Below are positions 18,908-37,485 of a stretch of 64,000 bases of DNA, piece by piece (position 1 is the first letter of the stretch; every line of letters begins with the position of its first letter). The stretch is from Medicago truncatula (taxonomy: Eukaryota; Streptophyta; Magnoliopsida; Fabales; Fabaceae): positions 41,377,832 through 41,441,831 of the forward strand of contig NC_053046.1 in NCBI RefSeq assembly GCF_003473485.1, in the 5' to 3' direction. The notes beneath the pieces are model-generated. The model saw only the letters and a program-made list of their open reading frames with translations. It did no database searches and was not told the DNA's origin. A program made the position numbers and the translations under genes.

Positions 18908-19201
18908 ATTAATCTAACAACTAACTACTAATATTTATCATTCAAAAAAAAAAATCTAATTTGATGTCAATTTTGTATGTCAAAATATCATTTCTCAACT
19001 CATTAAGAGGTACTAATGAAAAATGAAATACTGAATCAACTATAAATTTTTTAAATAACAAGTTGACATTAGCTTTCTCATTGAATTATTTTTTTAGAAA
19101 TCCACTCATTTGAATTCTCTATAAACATCTATTAATTTTTAGAGACTTTTCACATCAGTGAAAAATCATAATTTTATTTTAATTAAGACGTCCATATAAG
19201 G

Positions 19202-19350
19202 TACTTCCACTGTTTCTAAACATAAGCAAATTTTACTTTTTAAGTTCATTCAATTAATGATATATGTGATTCATATTATAAACCACATATATCATTAATT
19301 GAATAAACTTAAAAAGTAAAATTTACTTATATTTAGAAATGGAGGGAGTA
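19202..19350. mobile_element. Palindromic Stowaway-type MITE
   Basis: About 149 bp bounded by TA. The element is almost fully self-complementary: CTTCCACTGTTTCTAAACAT at the left pairs with AAATGGAGGGAG at the right, and TAAGTTCATTCAATTAATGA pairs with TCATTAATTGAATAAACTTA in the centre. Confidence 0.85.
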
Positions 19351-19685
19351 AGACTTACAAGCTAACTAAAACTGGTCACAGACAAAAGGGTGATTCAGAT
19401 AGAGAGCATAATACAAATACAAAACAACAAATTTTAAGTGTAGTCCATCAAGGTTTTTGTCTAATTGCAGAATTAAAGTTCAACTCATTGATAAATATAG
19501 ATTTCGTAAATGATGTTATATCTTTACACATTTCCCCATATAAAACCAAATTACAAAATAGATAGAGCCAGCTGAAATAAAACCATGCATAATGTACTTC
19601 CCTAAACCTGAAAAGCACTCAATAATTAAACTGTTTTCCTTGCCTTGCCTAGTTATCAACTTAGCATACTATTATTGTCAATTAT

Positions 19686-19954
19686 TACCTCCGTTCCTTT
19701 TTAACCGTCAGTTTTTGACATTTTACATAAACTAAGACACTCAATAAATATTACTTTTTCTTATGCAATAATTTATACTTTTACTATAATAGTCATTTAA
19801 TATCATATTTCCTATATTTCTCTATCCACAATAAATAACTAAGGGTAATGTTGGTAAAACAACATTTATTGTTGCATTGAATTTTGAAAGTGACAGTTAA
19901 ATAGGAACAAAAAATTTCTCCAGAAGTGACACTTAATAAAAAACGGAGGGAGTA
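19686..19954. mobile_element. Stowaway-type MITE, copy 2, inverted relative to copy 1
   Basis: About 269 bp, bounded by TA, ends ACCTCCGTTCCTTTTTAA and AAAAAACGGAGGGAGTA. On the opposite strand its body matches the element at 9481-9758 nearly base for base. Confidence 0.85.
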
Positions 19955-20057
19955 ATACACAAAAATACAAAATCAATTTACTTAAAAAGCCAATGAAAGA
20001 TATTGTCCTATTTTACCTTTAACATGAATCTCATTAGATCCAGTTCATTTCACACCA

Positions 20058-20258
20058 GTTTTAAAACCGAACCGGAGATCAAATAAGTGAGACCTCAAGA
20101 TCACAATTTATTGGGTTCAATATGAAAACCAGTTGAACCAACTGCAGTTGACCCGGTTCAACCAGGTTGTAATGTAACCGCAATCAAACCAACCAAAAAA
20201 CTAGCCCATTCTCGGTTCAACTGGTTGAACCGTCCGGTTCAGTCTGGTTTTTAAAAAC
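20058..20258. mobile_element. CCGGTT-rich TIR repeat, copy 1
   Basis: Ends GTTTTAAAACCGAACCGGA and TCCGGTTCAGTCTGGTTTTT are inverted repeats. The interior has many GGTTCAACC/GGTTGAACC words in both orientations. A related element lies at 36717-36873. Composition and TIRs suggest a MITE; the superfamily is uncertain. Confidence 0.6.
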
Positions 20259-20439
20259 ATTGCTTCATACTGACATGTAGTCCCAAATAATGAGCTAGCA
20301 TGTACCTAGGAAAATGATGTAACTTAAAAAGAAGTTAAAAAGGGTAGTTTAGTAGTTAGAAATCTGAGTGTTTTAACTACAAGCACATGAATGCAGTGAC
20401 CATAATGTCATCAACCAATCTACCAATTACACAAACTTT

Positions 20440-20967
20440 ATGCCATGCATTTCAGATATAGAACATAAGATGAAGAAAAAAATGCCACAAAGTATCTGCA
20501 TTTTCCCCACTAGAACAAAACCAGAAGTAGCAGTTCTTAGAACAGAAGATTTAGCTACCTCCTCAGCACCAACCAAAGAAAGCATGCATAATAGATCCAT
20601 TACCCTTGACGCAAGTGACACAAAAGAGATGGCTGAATTTCCTCCAGTAGACATAGGCACTCGAGGCACGGTGGCATCCCTCATAATGCAGGAAATTGAA
20701 TACTTCAGCCGGATCGAATCAAATTCCCAAGACAGGTCACAGAGGAACAAGTCTCATCAAATCACAGATGTAGGTTCCTCCCTTAGCACAAATTCCAGAA
20801 GCACGATTGTATCCACAGTTGAAAGTACAAAGAAAAAGCGAGTAAGTAGCAAGCTCCTACCAAGTATGTGCTCTATGGTTGATGTATCAGAAAACTGTAG
20901 GCCTAACAGAACCTCGGTTTTCGGTTATAAAAACCTAAGGTCCGACAAGAAAAAATTTCAGTTTTAG
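20440..20967 (+). CDS. Uncharacterised basic Ser/Thr-rich plant protein, convergent partner of the gene at 20964-21479
   Basis: An open frame of 175 codons from an ATG at 20440; ATGs at 20470 (MKKKMPQ) and 20482 are alternative starts, and a TTTCAG acceptor just before 20455 would favour 20470 if there is a 5'UTR intron. The protein is basic, rich in Ser and Thr and likely disordered, with one compact motif, IGTRGTVASLIMQEIEYFSR, at about residues 73-92. The gene at 20964-21479 has a matching motif (LGTTGTIGSLMTRELDRVSS) and a second weaker match (MVDVSEN here, VVDIKCG there). I do not recognise a function. The last bases, including the TAG, overlap the stop of the other gene. The shared motif in the sense frame argues for a real gene. 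Confidence 0.6.
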   Translation: MPCISDIEHKMKKKMPQSICIFPTRTKPEVAVLRTEDLATSSAPTKESMHNRSITLDASDTKEMAEFPPVDIGTRGTVASLIMQEIEYFSRIESNSQDRSQRNKSHQITDVGSSLSTNSRSTIVSTVESTKKKRVSSKLLPSMCSMVDVSENCRPNRTSVFGYKNLRSDKKKFQF

Positions 20968-21479
20968 ATGATGCTCTCAGAGAGCTTCGAGAAACCAAGT
21001 TTCTTAAGACGACTCGCTAATGGTGTAGCCCAAGTCTTCTCGGCACTCCCACATTTTATATCCACAACTTCAACAATGTTAGGTTTCTTTTTATCATTTT
21101 TTTTCTCTCTGACTGGAGTTCTGTCCACTGAAAAGTTATCAGCAGAACCTAACATTGGTATTCTATGAGTATTCCTTCTAGTACTATTAGCTTTTGTTCT
21201 ATTATTTGTAATTTTACTGCTTCCACTGCCACTAGCCTCATCTGATGATTTTCTTGGTTGTAGTCTTCTAGGGGTTGCACTTGTACCAGTACTACTACTA
21301 CTACTACATGGAACAGAAACAGGAAGTGTCCTAGGTTTAGTTCTTGAAGATACATGCTGTTTGTGTGTTACAGAAGAGACACGATCCAATTCTCTTGTCA
21401 TTAAGGAGCCAATTGTTCCAGTGGTCCCTAACTTGATTGAACCTCCTTTGCCCTTAATACTTTCAAGTGTTTGAGCCAT
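20964..21479 (-). CDS. Uncharacterised Ser-rich basic plant protein, paralogue-like partner of the gene at 20440-20967
   Basis: An open frame of 171 codons starting MAQTLESIKGKGG on the minus strand. It carries KLGTTGTIGSLMTRELDRVS at about residues 17-36, a Ser-rich middle (SSSSSTGTS) and a basic C-terminal part that ends GFSKLSESII. The DNA upstream (about 21480-22390) probably holds the 5'UTR, perhaps with an intron, since no coding exon is visible there. It reads toward the plus-strand gene at 20440-20967 and the two stop codons share bases 20965-20966. The protein is probably nuclear or cytosolic, with no signal peptide or membrane span; the function is unknown. Confidence 0.72.
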   Translation of the reverse strand: MAQTLESIKGKGGSIKLGTTGTIGSLMTRELDRVSSVTHKQHVSSRTKPRTLPVSVPCSSSSSTGTSATPRRLQPRKSSDEASGSGSSKITNNRTKANSTRRNTHRIPMLGSADNFSVDRTPVREKKNDKKKPNIVEVVDIKCGSAEKTWATPLASRLKKLGFSKLSESII

Positions 21480-22639
21480 GTTCCTATGATCCTATTTTCT
21501 CCAATTAATGGTCCAAATATTCTAGTCTTTGAGATGGAAACTCCTTGCAGATTTAATCAACTATCTGTTGCACATAAGTGTCACCCAGTTAGAATAGCAA
21601 TTCTAGTTCAAAAGCAAACATACATGAAAAACACACATGATTGATCAGAGAGTTCGGTCGATTGTGCCTATGTCTCCAACCGCAGAGTGGTTACAATATC
21701 TTTCTATTATTCAAGCTTAGGGTTTACATATTACAGCTTGTGTATAAATACTCGTCAGCTCGAGCGACTTACCCGCGTATGAGTAAACTATGAGCCACAC
21801 CTAAGACACGCAATGTTTTGAAATGTAAAGTAATAATTTTCTTAAAAAACTAATTGGTAGTTTAGTTGAACAACATAAGAAACATAGCTTCAAGTTCAAT
21901 TGAACAACAGAATAACACCAATTTTGAAAAGTAGTCCAAAATAGTAAATCCCCAATTAGCTTCGAGAAATTTTAGGAATACAAACAAAGAAACATTTCTT
22001 CTCAAGAATGACCAAAACTTGGTTCAAATTGATCTCATTAGTAAAATCAATGCAGGTCAAATAGTTTAAGTTTAACCATTAAACTGTGAATCATGATATC
22101 TCAGCAAAACCACACATCATGAAACAGAATCAAATCCAAAACACTATCCACATTCAAGATGGAAAAAGGAATTAACTTTGAATTCAACAGAATTACCCTT
22201 CACATTCATATAATACTAAAACCAAACACATTATAGATCCATAAAGAAAAAGATTAAAATAGATTTTGGGTATCTTACTCACATGTTAGAAATTGCAGAT
22301 TTGAAACAGACCCAACAAAGAAAGCAACCTTTTTACAATCCTGAGCTAAAATTTCACATGAAAATGAAACTTTGGGAAATTGTTCTTGTGTTCTAGAAAA
22401 AACACAGTTTGTTGTGTATGTCTTGTTATTTTAGTCTTAGAGCGTGCGGATCCACTTTCATTGATTTGACTTTTATTTTCATTTTCACATCAATGTAGTT
22501 GTAGTACGAAGGAAAAACTGAAAATGTTAATAAATGTTTCTACCAAATATTCACTACTACTAATTATCAAGAAATCAATTCATTGTCATCAACCTCAACA
22601 TTACTTTAATACCACTAAGTAGCGTGCTTAACATTCTTT

Positions 22640-22785
22640 CATAGATACTGACACCATACACGATACAGACACTAACATGTTGACACCGATGATAATAAAT
22701 TGAGAAAATTACATAATTCAATATAATCATATGTATCGGTGTCGTGTCGATGTTGAACACAATCCGTATTCGACACCAAGACATA
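22640..22785. repeat. GTGTC-rich dispersed repeat, another copy
   Basis: Words such as GACACCATACACGATACAGA and GTATCGGTGTCGTGTCGATG resemble the patches at 2470-2595 and 16275-16380. An open frame on the minus strand here is a by-product of the repeat. Confidence 0.45.
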
Positions 22786-24273
22786 CCTTATCCAAGGAGT
22801 GTGTTTCATACTAAAAGATTTAGATGTAGCAAATAATTAGGAGTTTGATTTCAGACAATAATGTATGAAGAAAATTATGTTGAAAAGTGAAAATTCACCT
22901 TTTGTTTTTAACTAAGATTAATCGTCTTTAAACACTTAAAAAAAATGTTTGTTAAAGAATTTTTTTTTTTTTACTCATTAAATAATTCTATATAGAAATG
23001 TTAGTAGTATTGTATATGCAAAAAGAAAAGTTTTTCTTATTTGTAAATATTAGTATGTTACTCCAAATTTTTTTTTTTTAGGGATACTCCAATTTATTTA
23101 AGATTCTTTAACTTCTCAATTTATTTAATGAAATCAATTGAACTAACCAACATTTTATTGAATGCATGTTTTTTTTTTTTTTGAATGGCAAAATAATATT
23201 GTATGCATGTAAGTGTGACCAAATGCGATAAATTAATTACTTTTTTTTTGTTACAATAAGTTAATTACTTAGGTGCACATGATTTGATAAATTAATCTCT
23301 TTTTATTTAAATAAAAAAATTACTAGTATACTATATAGATTTAGGTGTGACCAATTGTGATAAATTTTGGGTGCCAAAATAAGTTATAGAAAATGAGGCT
23401 CATCATACGAGTTTGGCTAGAAAGCAGCCACGGTGAGTCGGTGACAATGGGAATACACACAGACACACGTTCTACATGTCTTCCAATAGTCCACGTACCC
23501 TTCTGAATGGATGAGTGTATATGTGATTAGCAAATCCTTGTGTTATTTAAAGGGAAAAATGCCAAAGTAGGCCGGCCTCTTTTTTTGGTAAAAATCTATG
23601 TCAATCTATAGGGTGGTCATGATCTACAAGCTGGGGTCCAATACGATCACAATGTGCTCCACGTCAAAAATAGAATAAAGTTACCTAATTTGTTGATGTA
23701 AGCTGAAAACAACTTATAAATTTGCCGCCAAGTTGTTTTTATAAGTAAGTGTGTTAAAAAATTACTAACAGTGCTTATATAATGAAATTGGTTTAAATAA
23801 ACTCTTCCAAACACTCTAAATAGTCACTAGTTACTAATCAATATGTATGTGCAAAGTGCTGCAACAAAATGTTATACATGTTTTCAACCAAGAGTCATAC
23901 TTACATACTTTGCATCAAGCAAAAAGACCATATCGGTACATGATGCAAGACATGAAAATTAGATACACATTCAAAAAAGGAACCCTATCATCTAAATCAG
24001 TAAAAAGCCTAGGCCACTGGTTTTCGCCTTTTGCTTCGTCCTAAGTTAAAGAGTGATAGGCTTTAATATTACCAAAACATAGCAGTGCAAAAACTACAAG
24101 GACATCCCAAACCTCTATAGAAATAATACAATTTAAGGCATTGATATTTTTTTCTGCCTTAAAAATAGAAGCACCAGAGTAGCAGCCTCTTGTGATTGCA
24201 ATCACGAACGGAACCGTGCATCCAAAGCTATCTGAATGTATAAACATCTACCAAATGCAGTTATGTAGTATAC
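22786..24273. other. Intergenic DNA between the convergent pair and the DNA polymerase
   Basis: Several long T runs (22958-22971, 23068-23079, 23170-23182). About 23695-23815 resembles the ACAACTTATAA / AGTGCTTATATAA repeat also present in lipocalin intron 4 (15740-16000). About 24050-24250 probably holds the 3'UTR of the polymerase. Confidence 0.45.
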
Positions 24274-27200
24274 CTATTTTGCAGAGTACCAATTTTGAGC
24301 ACACTTAGCATCAACAGAGAGATCAACTTTAAGAATATTCTTGCCATAAAAGGGTTTGGACATGCACTCAACAACTATGGACTTTGCAACCTCAGCCGAC
24401 TCTGTCGGTCCTTCCAATATGACTTCATCATGAACCTGCTTTGCCATATATTCAAAAACCTTAGCAAAAAGTAACAAGGTAGCTTGTGAACAGATATCTA
24501 AAAACATTCAAGCAAAACTAATCTTGACCATGCATGTGTGGTTGTCAATCGCATATTGTGGAAAATAGTGGTTTGTTTAAATTTTGCTACGCAACAGTGC
24601 TATAGCACCAATATAGCTACCATTTGACAACATTTTGTACTACATAGCGTATTGCGAACAATAGTGATTTGTTCAATTTTCGCTCGCTAAGTTGTGGTGG
24701 TATAGCACCACAACTTATACATACCAATATTGGTGGTTGTATGGCCAACTTCTCTTATCTTTCAATTGATACACAATTTATACATACCAATAAAATTGAG
24801 CAAGAAAAATGAGCAACAAGGAAATAAGAGCATGAAATTACCTGTAGAAGTAACTTCCACCCAAGCTCCTTCAACTTTTTATTATTTGAAATTTGTATCA
24901 TAGCACACATGGCAACATCAGCAGCACTACCCTGTTGCATTTAACAAATAAAAAACCCATAGAGAAAGATCTGTATCATGAATGTGCTATTGTAATGTTA
25001 AATACAATTAAACGGTAATAGTTTCTATAAAGCACTAGTTGAACCATCACTTTGATACAAACTTTGAATATGCTAGATTTATAAGTGGGTTTTGAAAACA
25101 TTATTTCATTATTAATTGTTTTCTTAAAGGGATAATTTCAAAAGATGTAACTGATTTTATTGTAGACCTAGTCTAGTAAGAAATAGTCTGTTTTTCTTCT
25201 GGTTTGATGAACAATTTACATATTAGATTCACCATAATGTGATTGCCAATCTTGAGAGTATGTATTGGATTAGTCTATTCAAAAGAAGTAAGGACCTGCA
25301 CTGGAGTATTAATAGCAGCTCGTTCAATGTGACCTTTCTGGTAAGTATTAGCTTGGGCCATCAAAGGGAACCGCCGGGCTCGCCCTAGTAATGTGTAGAC
25401 ACAATGGTACTCACGGGCCTCTTTTTTACGCTCCTCTTGCCATTGCAAAACTTCTTTTCTATCGTTGTACCAAAGGTCAACTGTTTTCTTAGCTTCTTTC
25501 ACAGTAACCTAAAAGAAAAAACATGTGAACTTTTCTTGACAACGAAATAATAAAGCATGGACACTCGTCAGCATTACAAATCTCTCATAATAAGTAATAG
25601 AACTCAACGTACCCTCCAATCCTTAGAAAGTCCTACTGGTGTCTTCCCATATGCAATTGAGAAGTTAAGCATTTTAGCTTTTCGCCTTTCAGAACCAAAT
25701 GCATCCTAAAATGGAGGGACAAGATACAAAGAGTCATGATCAAATTATGGAAAAGATAGTTGCAATGCTAAACAGATAATTCAAGCTTCTATACCTTCAA
25801 TAGAGGCACTGGGGGTTTATCTTCTCCAGGCTGAGGGTGCCACTCAAGAAGCACTTCCTTTTTCTCAACTGCTTCACGAATATATGGATACATATTCATT
25901 GCAGTCCTTGAATGGAAATCTCCACCGGCTTTAAAAGCTTCCATCATGCTCTTACAGTTGGCAAGATGCGCCAGAATCCTAAGTTCAAGCTGTAACAAAT
26001 CACAAGTACATAACATCGTCAACAGAATGAGAATTGTAGAAAACATTTCAAACAGATACACGATATGAACTATACTAACCTGTCCATAATCAGCAACTAT
26101 AAGAGAATTCCCAGGCGCAGCGATGAATGCTTGACGGATTTTGTATCGGTCTTTTTCCAAAGCAGGTTGATTCTAATTCATGAATTGCTATGTATTAGAT
26201 TAAGTCTCTATCCTTTTGAAAATCAATTATTAATCTAGTACACGTAATAATAAGAATATCAGAATTCAAATTAAAACCATTGGGATTGCATAATGCAGCC
26301 CAACTTTATGGTCCAATCCAAATGATTGTGTGTTTAACAAAGTGGTAACAAGACTAAGTAGAAATCATTCAATTACGTAATTAAAAGAGTATGTAAAATT
26401 GTATGAAGAGGCTTTAGTTAGTACAAAACCAAACAAACCAAGTTTGATTAAATGTTTGTTGATAAATGAATATATTAAATGAAAGAAAGGAGACATTGTA
26501 CATTTGAGAGGAGGTTTCCAGAATCAACTGTTGAGTTGAAATGTTACATGGAGGCCTAAAAATAGTTTTATATCTTTGACAACCTCAGTCACCAAAGAGC
26601 ACTTCAAAGTTGAAGCATGGACAATCCATATAACTATTCGACCTTCTGTCTTTTTATTTTACGCAGTTGCCAAACTTTGATTTTAAAGAACAAGGGAAAA
26701 AAGAATGGAGTGGAGGCCCATGAATGGATTTACATGTCTAATAGGAACAAGTCCTACTAAAAGGAGATATTACATTTTAGGTCAAAAGAGAATTATAAAG
26801 CCACCAATTAAGAATTTAGCATCAACAAAATCTTATGACACCAATTAAACATACACGCACAAAAATGAAGGTCAATGATCAAATAAATAGTGCTTATAAA
26901 ATTTCAGGTTCGCAACTACCATCATTAAAATGAAATATCCTAATCAAAATCCCAATAAACCATGCAATTTAGAATTACCTGCAGATTTGGCCGTCTAGCT
27001 GACAAGCGTCCTGTCTCTGTGTTGATATTTAAGGAGCAGTGAACACGGTTATCCTTTCCTGATATATTATGTCCCTGACATAAAGAAACCATGAAGCTAC
27101 GTAGAACAGGTATAAAGAACTTCAGAGTTAAAAAAAAGACATACTGGATCAAAATTTTAATAGATAAGTGATGGCACATGGAAGCAAGCATTCATGGTCA

Positions 27201-30200
27201 GGTTCTCAAATATCATTCAGATAAGCTGTTTGCCACAAGGGTAGCATATATTAAATCAAATCAACCAATTCCAGAAATGAAAATAAAACTAATAGAACAT
27301 TACAAAATGAAAATAAAACTTAATAGAACATTACACAAGAAGAAATAGACAGAAACTTGAAGTCTCTGAATGGTTTCAGTTCTATATCTTATATATTTCA
27401 ATTCAATATTGCAGAACAACAAATACTTCTAGACAACAACAAAATACAACAACAACACGTATTTAAAAAAGAATATGGCCTTCAGTAAAACATAACAGGT
27501 AAACAAGAAAATATCATCAATTTCCTGTGGACAAGATATATGGAAGTTGTTGCTTGTACTAGTTTCAACAAAAAAAGCTTGATCAAAAGCTTTAAAATAA
27601 GATCACCAAACTTCAAATGGCAGACCCCTTCACAAATTATAGATGTGCGATGTTACTGCTTAAACACATTATCGACTCTTTATTTTCACTACAAGGAACA
27701 GGACAGCCATAATGAAATAGACCAAAAACACTTAAAAATACATACCTGCAGGGGTAGAATGAAATTCGAAATCAGAGAGTTGATTGAACTGACTTCACAT
27801 AAAGCAGCAATTGCATGGCAAGCTTCTCTCCCTTCTTTCTCCGTTGGAAAAGCAGAAAAGGCTGTTCCATATGCAGAATTATCAACTTTTGAAACCTCAA
27901 TATGATTTTGAGAAAGATTTCCATGTTCATCGCCGTCATCATGATCATCATCTAAGTTATAAATCTCATCAGTAAAGTCAAAATCAGACGAAATGTTTCC
28001 AGCCAGAACCTTTAAAGCATCACCACTAACTGATGGCCAACCACTGGCTGTGTACATTTCTGTCTTCAAGGTATAACCTAGGCTCTTCACCTTCATATCA
28101 CGAAATTTTTTGGGAGCCTTCTTTCCTTCTTCAATCACTTCATCAACATTGGGAACTTTGAATATTCTCTCAGTTGGAAGTGCTAGATTGGAGTCTTTTC
28201 TGCAATGAGAACAATATCTTTCAGCTACTTTGTCATAAACAGCACAATTCATAAAAAATTGTGACCTTTTCTCCTTGATGAGCTCAATCAACACACATGC
28301 AAAAATATCAAAGTAGATACTAACATTCACGAATACATTAAAATTACAATAATCAGACTGTTTGCTTGATAAATATTTCAGGCTTCAACTATGAATCAAT
28401 TCATTTAAGATTTAATTAAGTAGTCCATGTAAGTCATAAGATTAAAAACAAAAAAGGTGTACCTGTTCAAGGTACCGCCAAAAAGCAGCTGGCGCAACTG
28501 TAAATCGCTTCCGACATTCATATACTTGGCATCGGGACAATACCTACATGCCCATTTCCGGAATCTATCAACAGCTACCTCTTGCTCTACTTTGGCAACC
28601 TTTTCTATGCCTTCAAGATATTCCCGATCAACTAGCATTCCCTCAGATTCCATTCGGACTAGAATCTCCCCAAATGGGCGCCAATATTCATTGTAGAAGT
28701 CATACATGGTTTTCCCAGAAACTGGTACACCATCAAAATTCCACGGCATGTCTAACAGATAGCTCTTTAGGCTCTCATACAAATTCAAAGTGCTTTTAGC
28801 ATCTAAAGCAGAATAACATATCCAAGGTATGCGCTCATCTCTCTGCAGATCTTCAACAGGAGCAATGGTAATAATTTTACCCTCGGATCCATCTTTTTTC
28901 ACCTTTTTCTTACCAAATAGCGTTTTCATTGACACTTTACCGATCAAATCCTCTTCATGGTTAAACTGAGACCTTGACATGACCTTTTTGTCGCCTGATA
29001 GTTTTTCAAGAGAATAACCCCCATTTAATTGTCTTGATGAATCCCATAACCGTGCCATGTGCATTGTATCAGCATGAAAACCAGAAACCTTGAATCCATA
29101 GTTCTCTATAACATGACAGTCAAAGCTATAATTATGCCAGACCTACACAATGCATCAGTGACTCAGTTATTTCAAATATTACTTGTAATCCAAAGCCATA
29201 TCATTCATACAGCAGAAACCAAAGAATTACTGCACGAGCAGTGCTGCATTTTGAGGTGAGTGATAGGATTAAGAATGTACAAGGGATAGAAGAAGAAAGA
29301 AAAGTTCACCTTCATGATCGAAGGATCGCTGAAAAAGTTAGCAAATTTTTCTAAAATCTCTTTGCCTCCACCATCAAGCACATCTACCCAGATACAAGAT
29401 TTTCCACCTCCAAAATCTGCGTCTGGACCACCATAAATGCTGAAGCATGTTATCTCCCCATGATCTACAGGTGTTTCTTGTTTGACATCTATCTTGGCTA
29501 CCTTTGAAGAGAATGAGATCAGCAGAAAATATATGTTCGTCATTCATACAAATTAGTTGAACTAGTGATCAAAGTACGCATACACCGACAGACAAGTGAA
29601 AATAGTCAAAATAATTATACCTCGGTATCACATGCATAAATAAGATGCCGGTATTTTACAGTGATCATCTTAACAACCTCCTCTGCGAGAGGAATATTAT
29701 CAACCACCAGAATATCTTCATAGATACGACAGAGTCTGTCCCGAAGTTTTGACTGGTCGGTACGACGAGCCTTTCTATCAAACGTCACATCAGTTGAGTC
29801 CATTGCAGTTTCCTCCGAAACATCATCACCGTTAACTTTAGTAATTTTCTCTTCACTGATCTCCAATGCAGATTCGTTAAACTGATGGACCACAGTTTCA
29901 GAATCTGTAAACATCTTTGAATTGTTTAATACAGAATATTGAACAGAAGATGAGACATGTTCACCATGACCTTGCCGTACAAGATTGCTAACAACATCCG
30001 TAGAAGAACCTTGTCTCCGACCAATGGAAGCAAATCTATTAGACACATGAGAGCCGTTACTTTTCCTCTCGTATCTGTTTGTGCCGTTCATTTCCTTCTT
30101 ACCTTCAGCTAACTTATTTTTTGCTAAAGTCCATCCTCTATTATCACCACCAGCCAATTTTCTTTCAGTGGCTGTTGTGGAAAGTTCAGGATTACAAGGA

Positions 30201-31863
30201 GCGACATCCACCTTCCTAACTTGCATTTCAGAGGAATGCGAAGAATTCACCTCTTCCTCCACCATCATTTCCTCTAACATGCTAGCTGATGCATTTGAAA
30301 ACTTCATAAGTGTAACGCGAACCGGATTCTTGTATGGGAAATTATGTTTATATCCAGTGTTACTGTGTTCATTTAACCCCAAAGATGTCAACTTTGTACA
30401 CAATAAATCTGCTCTAACACAATTACTATGCATAGTGCTATTTCGAAGGCCATTGCTAGCAATCTGAATTGCCTTGATTTTTCTTCTGCAGTTCATATCA
30501 TACAATGAAAATAAAGGTGTCAATTGAATGAAAACTAATAGCATATTATTATACCGCAATGCACCAGATAAGAAAAACTCCATCTATAACTGTGTACGTG
30601 TGGTAAAATAATACAGGGTTCCACGTGTACCAGAGATATAACAATAAAAAATGGAGGAAACTGTCACTTTGCCTCTTCTCTTAATGTGTGAGGTATAGTC
30701 GTTATAGTCATTGAAAGTGTCAGAACTTCAAAAACACCTCAGAGTGTGTCTTGTGTTAGTAACTTCATGAACTAAACTCACAATCAGAAGATACATTCGA
30801 GAACCAAACTAACTAACCAAAGATACATTTTAGGACCAAAGTGACTAACAAAAGACACATCCAATGATATTTTTTGTACTGTGGAAAATTTTGCTTATCA
30901 CAAACATCAATTTCGTGAAAGATAACTTAGGTTGTAACATTTCTCAACTCCACCTCTACCCGTCCTGAGTTTTCTGGCAAACAGAGGTTGAAAATTTGAC
31001 CAATGTTTTTTAAAAAAAACATGTAAACATTCGTGATATATAGCAATACTCTTTCGTAATGAGGGTCATGCTAACAAGCATCCTAAGGGCATTGTTTAAG
31101 GAACCTTAAAAAGGAAATTTTGTCTTGAAAATACAAGTCAAATACTTGTCAAAGTCATAAACACACTTCACTATACAAAAATTACTTTTTTTTTTTTATT
31201 CATTGAACAATGCCCTAAATTCACTTGTTAGCATTCTCCTTATAATTATAATACATTCAGGAACTACAATGACGGTATAACATATTCAACTACCTAAATG
31301 GTTATTTACTCATAAAAATCTCCACTATCCATTAAATAATTTGCTCAATATTTCCACATTAACAATAGTATATCATCCCTAATAACAAGTTTTACACTAT
31401 TTTTTGATCACATGTACTTACTAGTTACATTACTGAATTAAAAAATTTGAAACGTAATCCTCAAACTTTCAAAACAAGAGAGGAAACAACAACCACTACA
31501 ACCCATTAAACTCAGCATTATGTTCAAGTACAAAACAAAACATAAAAAACAACACTTTCAGCATGTTTTTTCTATGACTAACATGAAGTAAAAAAAAATT
31601 GACTTATTTTAAAAGAATTTTGAAACAGAAATTCGAAGACCCAATGAAGAAAAGATGCAAAATTTGGAGTTAAGAAAGAATTTGAAGACATGGGCAAGTA
31701 AAGTTGAAAGAAAGTGAAAAGGAGAAGGAGAGAGAGTGAACCTGTGGGGAGTAAGGGAAACAAGAGAAGAGCATGAAGATAAGGAGAGGGAGAAGGGGCG
31801 TGAGAGTCGGCAGCATAAAGGGCAATATGGTCTTAACGAAGTGGATTGTGTAGTAGCCTCCAT
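24274..31863 (-). CDS. POP: Plant organellar DNA polymerase (family A, POLI type)
   Basis: Twelve exons on the minus strand: 31863-31742, 30485-29621, 29501-29310, 29142-28463, 28199-27746, 27074-26979, 26172-26080, 25989-25795, 25705-25613, 25508-25296, 24931-24842 and 24435-24274. Phases agree throughout and give 1084 residues. Exon 1 encodes a Ser/Arg/Leu-rich targeting peptide (MEATTQSTSLRPYCPLCCRL). A poorly conserved linker fills residues 41 to about 300. The 3'-5' exonuclease shows DTE at 327-329, NYSFD just after 394 and YSALDA. The polymerase has motif A (VADYGQLELRI, catalytic Asp 831), motif B (RRKAKMLNFSIAYG, about 906-919) and motif C (VHDE, 1032-1035). This family replicates and repairs mitochondrial and plastid DNA. 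All key residues are present, so it looks active. Intron 1 is about 1.25 kb. Confidence 0.97.
24530..24730. repeat. Diverged direct repeat in polymerase intron 11
   Basis: Two segments with the words ATTGTGGAAAATAGTGGTTTG / ATTGCGAACAATAGTGATTTG, each followed by TTTTGCT/TTTCGCT and TATAGCACCA, lie about 120 bases apart. It resembles a decayed transposon end pair, but no boundaries can be set. Confidence 0.4.
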
Positions 31864-32139: not shown

Positions 32140-33824
32140 AGGAAAAAACAAAAAACGTATCTTCAGTGTGATATCCGTTCTAAATTTATGAGTTACTTTT
32201 ACTATAAATATAGACATTGACTCAGAGTAAACCTTGAGATAGAGGGGGCTGAAACAAGGGTTTAGAATGGCAACAACAAAACTAGGGTTTGTATAGAGTT
32301 TGTCTCTTTGGAACAAACACTAGGATTTGAGGGTTGATTCACCTTGGAAAACACTATTAGGATTGAGTCTCTTGGTTACAGGAAGAGATTGGGACTTTTG
32401 GTAGAATTAGGCGGAAGACTTATTCTTGTAACCCATTGATATCTCTTTTGTAAAGTTACTCATCATTATAGTGGAACGGATGGCTGCTCTCTCCCCCAGA
32501 CTAGGTCAATTTGGACCGAACTGGGTCAACAAATTATTTTGTGCTCTCTCTTCCTTTCTCTCTCTCTCTCGCTGTTTTCTACTTTTGGCTTGTGTTTATA
32601 ATTGTTCCATACACTTTGTTTTGGTTGCTTGACTATCCTTTGCTCCACACATCAAGTTTGTTATTGGTGTGATTTTTCATCAAATTTACAACAATTGTCG
32701 CCCACTGTGGGGCCCGAACCCACAACCACAAGGTTAGAGAGAGCAGAGTACATAGCCCTTGTTGAAGGGGTCAAGGAAGCCATATGGTTGAAAGGTATGA
32801 TTGGAGAAATGGGGATTAGTCAAGGGTGTGTGAAGATACATTGTGATAGTCAAAGTGCCATTCATTTGACAAATCATCAGGTATATCATGAAAGAACAAA
32901 ACACATTGACATTCGTTTGCATTTCGTCAGAGACATGATTGAGACAAAGGAGATCATGGTGGAGAAAGTGGCAACGGAAGAAAATCCAGCAGACATGTTC
33001 ACCAAATCATTACCAAGATCAAGGTTCAAGCATTGCTTGGACTTGATTAACTTCATTGAAGCATAGATGAAGGTTGGAGAGAGCAGCAAAGTGATTGATG
33101 GTTATATTGGCATCATCACTGATTTGAAGTCAAGGTGGAGAATTGTGAGAGTTAACTTAAAATCAGAAATCTGGAGAATCGTGCCACGATGGAGAAGCAA
33201 CGTGCCACGATTGTTGAAGCAAGATTCTGAAGCAGTCACAGGAAAAATCGTGCCACGATGAAATCGCAACGTGGCACGATGGTACGATTGAGGATAAAAT
33301 AAAAACGTGTTTTCAGTGAAAATTTGTTTCAATTTTTTAAAGGATTACTTTCACTATAAATATAAGCCTTGTATCAGATGATAAAGTGTGTAGAAAAACA
33401 AGGTTTAGAAGCCAACATACAAACTAGGGTTTATAGAGAATTTCTCTTGGCAACAACACTAGGGTTGAGATTGTTTTGATTCACCTTGAACAAAGTATTA
33501 TTAGGATTGAGTCTCTTGATCACGGGAAGAGGCTGGAACTTGGGTAGAATTATGTTTGAAGACTGATTCTTGTAACTCAATATCTCTTTGTAAAGAAACT
33601 CATATCATTATAGTGGAACGGAGAGCTGCTCTCTCCCCCCCATACTAGGTCATCATTAGACCGAACTAGGTAAACAAATTATTGTGTTCTCTTTCTTCCT
33701 TTTATCTCTTGTTGTTCATTCCTTTTGTTTGGATTATTTGCTACCCTCTTGATTTGATTACTTGGTATTAATTTACTCCACGCATCAAATTTTTATTGGT
33801 GTGGTTTTTTACAACGAATTCACA
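32140..33824 (+). mobile_element. Broken Copia-type LTR retroelement (fossil)
   Basis: Two LTR-like repeats in the same orientation, about 32140-32692 and about 33145-33824, share long runs including ACTATAAATATA, GAACAAA..TAGGATTGAGTCTCTTG, ATTATAGTGGAACGGA and the ending TTTATTGGTGTGGTTTTTTAC. Between them, 32735-33066 keeps the end of a Copia-type RNase H: EYIALVEGVKEAIWLKGMI at its start, the KIHCDSQSAIHL and HERTKHIDIRLHFVRD segments, and ENPADMFTKSLP. These are hallmarks of Ty1/Copia pol. A purine-rich run lies just before the second LTR. Only a small part of the interior is present, and the LTRs have clearly diverged, so it is an old, broken copy that cannot move by itself. Confidence 0.8.
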
Positions 33825-35075: not shown

Positions 35076-37485
35076 TCAACTGCATTCTCCTTTCTCAATA
35101 GAAGTTTCTTTTGTATGTTTTTGTTTACCCACTTGTACATGCCTCATTGCTAAAACTTCAAGAGCTGTAACTACATCACCAATCAAAGGTCGAGCATTAG
35201 CATCCTCCAATAGACACATTGCTGCAATTGCTAGTGCTTGGAATAGACCCCTCATTGGATAGTTCCCTTTTAGCAATGGATCAACCATTGATGTATATTT
35301 TCTTTTGTTTTTGAGTAGTGGTAGTGCCTGAAAACAAAAAATGTTATGAATGTCAATGACTCGTGACGTCTGTGGTTGTGCGATCAAGTGTCTTAAGGTG
35401 CATCTTAGGAACCAAATATAAGATTTTTTTTTTTTATACAAAGAACCAAACAAAAATATTATATTGAAAAGGTCAATTTTTAACTTTCAATAATTAAATA
35501 CACCACTTTTAAGATATAATTTCTAATTTTTATTCTTTAAGTGCGTGTTTAGAATTACTGTGAATCTCGCAAAATCATGGTGACACCTTAGTTTTGTTGA
35601 AGCTCCAAAAAATAGTTTTTGCGGAATCGCGGTTTGGCCAACTCACCGCAAATTCAAACATGCACTTATTTGTTCCCTTAGCGAGTTGTTAACCTTGATT
35701 GACTTGTAAAACATTATAGTTTATGTTAGAGAAAATATATGCACACAAAAGAGTGACATGACATACCCAAATGACCAAGTTTTCTTCTTCAGGCGATCTT
35801 GAAGAATCAAGTACTCTTCTCCCAGTAATCATCTCTAGAAACACCACTCCAAAGCTATAAACATCTGACCTTGTAGTCAATTGACCTGTTGAGGCATACT
35901 CAGGTGCACAATAGCCATAAGTTCCCATCACCCTAGTGGACACGTGTGTTTTATCTCCAGTTGGACCAAGCTTTGCAAGTCCAAAATCAGAGAGTTTTGG
36001 ATTGAAATTTTCATCCAAGAGTATGTTTGATGCTTTGAAATCACGATATATCACCGGTGGCTTTGCTTCTGCGTGTAAGTATTCAAGTCCTTTCGCCGCA
36101 CCTTCTGCAATTTTCATTCTAGTGTGCCAATCCAAAGGCTTTTTGCCCGGAGGTAACTCTGAAAATCATTTAACAACTTTTATTGGAAAGGGAACATTTT
36201 ATGGTGCAATCTTTGCATGTGATTATACTGGGAAGGATATAGACCTTCATTTTTCAATTTATTTTGATGTTACAGATTTTTTTATTTTTAAATTTCATGT
36301 ATGATTTGGTTGTCACACAAATGTAAAGGTAAACAAAACAGCTATGAGAAATTTAAGAAGCTATAAAATGTGCTTTATTTTGTGGCCGTAGTTGTACTAT
36401 ACAATTTTCATACTGGAATTGGTTGATTTTAGATTTTCAGGCAAGAAGACATTGTGCAAGATGTGCATTTTCTTACCAAAAAGGTGATCTTCTAACGAAC
36501 CATTCGCCATATATTCATATACCAAAATCCTTTGATCACCTTCTGCACAATACCCTACCAAATTGACAAGGTTAGAGTGGTGCAAGAAACTCAAAATCAT
36601 AACCTCTGCAAGAAATTCCCTGCTTCCTTGAAATCCATCCTTGTTAAGTTTCTTAACAGCAACAACCTGCATATAGTATAAGTAACACAACATTGACAAG
36701 TTCGCTTACTATATGCGTTTTAAAAATTGAACAAGACGGTTTAACCGGTTGAACCTTGAATTGGCACTTTGATCAAAGTTTTATCCCCATTCAAACCAAA
36801 CCGTTTAAGACGGTTGAAATATGATCCAGAAGTCTTGCCGGTTTGATGTTCAATTTGGTTCAATTTTTAAAACATTGCTTACAAATTGAATAACTTTGTT
36901 AGCATAATATTCAAATAACTCCTAGCATAAGTAATATTATACCTTATTATTTATGCTTTTAATGCGCCCTTTGTATACTCTCCCAAAGCCTCCTTCACCA
37001 ATCATATTGTTGATATGAAAATTCTTAGTTGCAACACATAGCTCATGGTAAGAAAATATCTTAGAGGTAATATTTCCTTTTCCATTTCTTGTGTTTTCTT
37101 CCTCTGCTATGTACTTCCGTTTGCCACCATCTACAATATAAATTTTTACAATTAAAGAAAACAACATTGATGTGCTAACATTTCATAAAGAAAACAACAA
37201 TAATATCTAGACATGAGACATTAAATTGAACCTCTTTAACATGAAAATCAATACCCTTTGCAAAAAAAAATAAAAAAATGAATACAATATTTGATGTGAA
37301 ACCAGAAATTCAGAACCTTGCAATTGAAAAAAGTAATTAAATAATTGGGACAATGTGGAAGATTAACATTGAAGGGTAAAAAACTTACCAGATTTAGAAC
37401 AAATGTTATGATAGTCCTTAATGCTTTTCTTCAATGTGTTCTTGGTGTTCTTCTCTTGTGACTTACAACATGCAAAAAAGCTCAT
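35076..37485 (-). CDS. Receptor-like cytoplasmic kinase, RLCK-VII (PBL27-like)
   Basis: Five exons on the minus strand: 37485-37389, 37130-36943, 36666-36477, 36158-35767 and 35327-35076, phases consistent, 372 residues. The kinase domain has the glycine loop [11 protein letters not shown] at 77-87, VAVKK with Lys 100, [10 protein letters not shown] with catalytic Asp 198, DFG at 216-218 and an APE motif in YCAPEYA. Intact catalytic residues suggest an active Ser/Thr kinase of the PBS1-like class that relays signals from surface receptors in immunity and growth. There is no receptor ectodomain or membrane span. Unusually, the N-terminus reads MSFFACC, so the Gly-2 needed for N-myristoylation is absent although the neighbouring cysteines could be S-acylated. 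Intron 2 contains a CCGGTT-type repeat at 36717-36873. Confidence 0.93.
36717..36873. mobile_element. CCGGTT-rich TIR repeat, copy 2, in kinase intron 2
   Basis: Starts GTTTTAAAAATTGAACAAG and ends CTTGCCGGTTTG...GGTTCAATTTTTAAAAC. Inverted ends and GGTTTAACCGGTTGAACC words tie it to 20058-20258. Confidence 0.55.

Follow-up and report, generated by a model that had tools for sequence, protein, structure and literature searches.

In Medicago truncatula, 1014 gene pairs display antisense poly(A) clusters in the 3′ UTR of the convergent neighbour, and 282 pairs display them in its coding sequence or 5′ UTR (PMC4117952). Arabidopsis was credited with 956 convergent overlapping pairs, among which the open reading frames (ORFs) themselves overlap in 13 (PMC1175971); a later count, made from annotated genes, gave 1,485 convergent pairs (PMC4463847). 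Small RNAs match at least one of the genes in 646 of 1008 Arabidopsis pairs (PMC2262095). The view that RNA degradation is the main effect of convergent overlap has been argued against (PMC1175971). A further system, PAI1-PAI4 of Arabidopsis Ws, associates related genes placed tail to tail, in a repeat that is methylated along stretches of shared identity (PMC3203196).

The pair of genes considered here is a rare form of this common kind. It lies in contig C5 (44.8 Mb) of the 430 Mb, 42-contig genome of M. truncatula, within a stretch of 64,000 nucleotides that was analysed as a whole, and that we name the window. A plus-strand ORF (20440-20967, 175 aa) faces a minus-strand ORF (20964-21479, 171 aa). 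They overlap by four bases and nowhere else. The features of the pair are as follows:

20377-20628, plus strand: in-frame stretch of 84 open codons preceding the plus gene, either 5′ UTR or extra N-terminus
20629-20967, plus strand: probable coding sequence of the plus gene, 112 aa, one exon, stop TAG; both paralogs start here within two residues
20653-20700, plus strand: plus motif IGTRGTVASLIMQEIE, seen by BLASTP, shuffles and codon pattern
20964-20967, both strands: TTAG common to both stops, read as TAG at 20965-20967 (plus) and as TAA at 20964-20966 (minus)
20964-21479, minus strand: coding sequence of the minus gene, 171 aa, one exon, stop TAA; start context GGAACATGGC
21384-21431, minus strand: minus motif LGTTGTIGSLMTRELD, seen by BLASTP, shuffles and codon pattern

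The preliminary description of this DNA, made from its letters, had reported a convergent pair with overlapping stop codons. This is exactly what is found, as a single TTAG ends both ORFs, the stop codons themselves having two bases in common. As in the COPs and cis-NATs described in Arabidopsis and M. truncatula, protein genes on opposite strands face each other by their 3′ ends, with little or no spacer and with 3′ ends able to overlap. Unlike most COPs, the ORFs overlap and the partners share a motif; transcript overlap is here a prediction from the ORFs. To call the arrangement unusual in plants, as had been done, is wrong for overlapping convergent transcripts, witness the 1014 and 282 pairs of M. 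truncatula and the 956 of Arabidopsis, but it is justified where the ORFs overlap (13 of 956 in PMC1175971). We favour, with moderate confidence, the view that these are two real genes, with coding sequences overlapping by four bases, which would derive from a single ancestor through local inverted duplication in the remote past. Jointly with this goes the view that both ORFs would be real single-exon protein genes of a small plant family endowed with an N-terminal motif.

Long open frames are rare by chance in DNA of this composition. When the 1300-base region was resampled 3000 times with a Markov model, 3 of the resamples contained a frame open over 175 codons or more, and none contained one of 196 or more. 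Codon usage has little power here: against a background of -0.134 (sd 0.151; n = 116, some true exons included), the minus gene scores +0.094, the core of the plus gene -0.057, and its upstream extension, taken over 63 codons from 20440, +0.126. The plus core is thus not favoured: the antisense frame of the same gene scores higher, at +0.024.

Much more is learned from comparison within the genome. With the plus protein as a query and E values up to 10, four places come up: the gene itself, two paralogs and one insignificant match (E 3.5). The paralogs are these:

C2:8013529-8013849: C2 paralog, E 4e-9 to the plus protein
C4:63223954-63224202: C4 paralog, E 3e-8 to the plus protein

Their homology with the plus gene begins at or beside the internal methionine at 20629, making a start at 20440 doubtful, and the genome search finds in the 20377-20628 extension no similarity to the paralogs. 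The plus gene therefore probably starts near 20629 rather than at 20440, as judged from this alignment. At the other end, the plus gene and the C2 paralog stop at one and the same alignment column, four columns beyond the end of the C4 paralog, so that the position of the plus stop is probably ancestral. All three share a CS...R...Y..L C-terminus. A partial second copy of this C-terminus (VTENNDFNRVPGYSYRIM, 21.2 bits) is present at L012:9730-9795, approximately 1 kb downstream of the C4 paralog. Purifying selection acts on the C2 and C4 paralogs, with dS 1.02 and dN 0.21 between them, and dS 0.74 and dN 0.03 over their first 30 codons. Between the plus gene and either paralog, over the full length, synonymous sites are saturated (pS 0.76-0.78). 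The split of the plus gene is thus older than that of C2 and C4.

The minus gene is more isolated. Its product is basic (pI 10.8) and comprises 27% serine and threonine; a short ACT/TAC microsatellite within the gene (21290-21308) codes for its serine run. No other copy was found in the genome, whether with the whole protein (E up to 0.001) or with its N-terminal 58, C-terminal 40 or motif 26 residues (E up to 10). These queries are blind to relatives as distant as the plus gene, which they missed too; conversely, when 33 motif residues of the C2 paralog served as the query (E up to 10), the plus gene and its C4 paralog came up and the minus gene did not. A PDB sequence search with the minus protein gave no match. 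Pfam matched neither protein at E values up to 10, and Rfam gave no match over 19000-23000 at gathering scores. A scan of prokaryote genomes with the alignment of the plus family produced 61 pattern matches, none of which was confirmed, and the motif strings of the gene family had no match in the literature searched.

Could just one of the two ORFs be a gene, the other having stayed open by chance or being the remains of a gene in decay? The lack of a further copy of the minus gene among the genome matches would fit this account, as would the codon score of the plus core, lower than that of its own antisense frame, and the silence of Pfam about both proteins. We nevertheless deem it very improbable, because the plus gene has two paralogs under selection, one of which ends at the same alignment column, while a frame as long as the minus one came in 3 of 3000 resamples and this frame carries at its N-terminus the motif of the family.

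This motif, GTxGT[IV][GA]SL...E, is N-terminal and is followed by a basic stretch rich in serine and threonine. The plus and minus genes and the C2 and C4 paralogs all carry near the N-terminus GTxGT[IV][GA]SL and then an acidic E, invariant in the alignment of the four, and we name them here the GTxGT-motif family. That both genes of the pair carry a similar motif at a similar place had been noticed early on, and it is well founded: BLASTP aligns the two proteins with 12 identities over 35 residues (24.6 bits, E 4e-4 for one comparison), and the N-terminal 45 residues score 49, where shuffled sequences average 19.3 and none of 5000 does as well. Comparing the whole plus, C2 and C4 proteins each with the minus protein, and shuffling either side, the score is reached by 0 or 1 of 2000 shuffles. 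A hidden Markov model built from the three members of the plus family gives the minus protein 18.5 bits, versus 12.7 for the best of 5000 shuffles, and ranks the minus ORF second among the 537 ORFs of at least 40 aa in the window, behind the plus gene only. Weaker is the tblastn comparison of the minus protein with the C2 and C4 stretches, in which the motif comes up with E values no better than 0.033 and 0.012.

Past the motif, the likeness fades. The score of the plus-minus comparison for everything beyond it is reached by 56 of 5000 shuffles, and for the C-terminal halves 369 of 5000 are as good; the minus gene shows no significant likeness to the plus gene in the half that bears the CS...R...Y..L C-terminus. 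A second, weaker match (MVDVSEN and VVDIKCG) had been proposed. It must be abandoned: the windows were picked by hand, 237 of 5000 shuffles equal them, and the best alignment of the C-terminal halves avoids these residues. The proposal that the two genes are related holds, then, via one N-terminal motif, but not through a second match or through the C-terminal halves, which are unlike. As for the role of the products, a guess from their composition, by which disorder was judged, would be a basic protein of small size, probably disordered, whose motif would serve as a short helix for binding.

At the DNA level the two motifs have 23 of 45 bases identical. Over the 15 motif codons, the first, second and third positions are identical in 10, 11 and 2 cases respectively, which is the mark of an old divergence under protein constraint. 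The motif likeness is best read as homology kept by that constraint, convergence being less likely. Searching the genome for the motif as a codon pattern, in a looser form, yields exactly four exact matches, namely C2, C4, plus and minus; the reversed pattern, used as a control, has two, so that this count by itself is no proof of homology. A stricter pattern has three genome matches and no control match, and leaves out the GTG codon of the plus gene. Because the patterns are exact, drifted or intron-split motifs are missed, and four is a lower bound.

Two of the four matches are 0.75 kb apart, which favours a local inverted duplication. Were placement random, the chance of falling within 750 bp of one of the three others would be approximately 1e-5, a figure reckoned after the pair was picked. 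An inverted duplication followed by divergence, as suggested at the outset, is thus favoured by adjacency, but it is unproven, with no DNA trace and with unlike lengths and C-terminal halves. No inverted repeat longer than 18 nt is found in 20300-21700, so that the duplication, if it happened, is old. One ancestral gene would then have been duplicated in place, in inverted orientation and very long ago, and all but the motif would have diverged.

A possible, distinctly less probable account is that the two genes belong to different families that share a short motif, by descent or by convergence, and were made neighbours by a deletion or some other rearrangement, their adjacency being a coincidence. 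It would explain why lengths and C-terminal halves differ and why the DNA has no inverted repeat beyond 18 nt, and the two control matches of the looser pattern go in the same direction. So do the paralogous loci: beside the C2 and C4 paralogs we found no minus-type gene, nor any convergent ORF of at least 60 codons ending within 400 bases of the stop. Yet of the four exact pattern matches in the whole 430 Mb, two fall here, each in frame and N-terminal in one of two abutting genes, and the small chance of such neighbours weighs against coincidence. As to a recent inverted repeat, producing hairpin RNA and silencing itself in the manner of PAI1-PAI4, its probability is next to nil. The tail-to-tail orientation of relatives is indeed that of the PAI genes; however, the DNA comparison led us to reject it, as the two arms lack the high identity of a PAI-type silencing repeat (nothing beyond 18 nt, and the divergent motif DNA just described). 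On these grounds the present pair should not form a matching hairpin.

The neighbourhood bears on the history of the locus. Moving upstream from the minus gene, and on its strand, one meets first a polymerase, including its 3′-5′ exonuclease exon, and then a kinase:

24274-30583, minus strand: family-A DNA polymerase gene (Pfam DNA_pol_A and DNA_pol_A_exo1), outer ORF limits, approximate
35076-37182, minus strand: protein kinase gene (Pfam Pkinase), approximate

We take the polymerase to be of the organellar type, and the kinase to be a receptor-like cytoplasmic kinase. Copies of a polymerase exon, 76% identical, are found at C3:22954619 and C3:22975130. The family-A DNA polymerase is thus present twice in tandem on C3, approximately 20 kb apart. 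The best relative of the kinase among the matches listed (84% identical) is at C3:23212966, approximately 240 kb from these polymerases. C3 therefore probably holds a duplicate segment. A further match to C3, near 22.998 Mb, involves pieces of the window at 38.3-40.1 kb. In eleven stretches of 10 kb (nine on C3, two on C4), neither gene of the pair was found beside the C3 polymerases, nor any convincing remnant, the best matches being E 0.64 for the plus gene (on C4), E 0.68 for the minus gene and one 27-base DNA match at E 0.037.

The plus family is also accompanied elsewhere by kinases of the window kinase's group. They lie 1.3 and 16.4 kb from its genes on C2 and C4, while the plus gene of the window is 14.7 kb from its own kinase; in the window and on C2, the plus-family gene and the kinase point towards each other, and on C4 both occupy one strand. 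Each of the three distances has a chance between 0.0001 and 0.0016, reckoned with at least 21 places in the genome for such kinases, at E 1e-45 or better with 150 of 1888 candidates scored, a cut chosen after listing. The C2- and C4-side kinases rank 13th and 8th among the matches listed, the window's own copy being first, and are not the closest relatives. Since kinases of one group are near plus-family genes in the window, on C2 and on C4, the plus gene probably belongs to old duplicated segments.

Several other elements surround the pair. Upstream of the plus gene, an element at 19685-19952 has ends CCTCCGTTCC and GGAGGGAGTA in inverted orientation, and is presumably MITE-like. Between it and the plus ORF, 20046-20260 is rich in words resembling AACCGG and GGTTCAAC, and looks repeat-like by eye. 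Farther away, an ORF at 32602-33066, with no Pfam match and 30% identical to L028:8063-8407, resembles in our opinion the end of a copia-type polyprotein.

Going back to the pair as the product of an old local inverted duplication, what would its layout imply for expression? From the arrangement of the ORFs we infer transcript overlap, antisense transcription and possibly some regulation. With no spacer, each messenger must draw its 3′ UTR from the coding stretch of its partner. If both genes are transcribed, the overlap would comprise at least the four bases of coding sequence, and natural antisense RNA is plausible, as neither gene has a spacer for a 3′ UTR. The 3′ ends of the two mRNAs would be complementary, making this an ordinary convergent cis-natural-antisense pair, with collision of polymerases, shared 3′-end processing and small RNAs as possible mutual effects. 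Plant poly(A) signals are loose, and a scan for hexamers therefore says little: beyond the plus stop, 20968-21600 contains no canonical poly(A)-like hexamer, and beyond the minus stop there is a single one, CATAAA at 20442. A bolder proposal, which we regard as unlikely, would have an old inverted-duplicate pair with interlocked stops, each 3′ UTR being the coding sequence of the partner, held by selection as a mutual antisense switch.

In Arabidopsis, tail-to-tail pairs with overlapping coding sequences make up a small minority of the convergent pairs (13 of 956, PMC1175971), and those with related partners are presumably fewer still. The locus of M. truncatula provides a compact case in which to ask whether antisense control is what maintains such pairs, or whether their partners simply happen to be adjacent.
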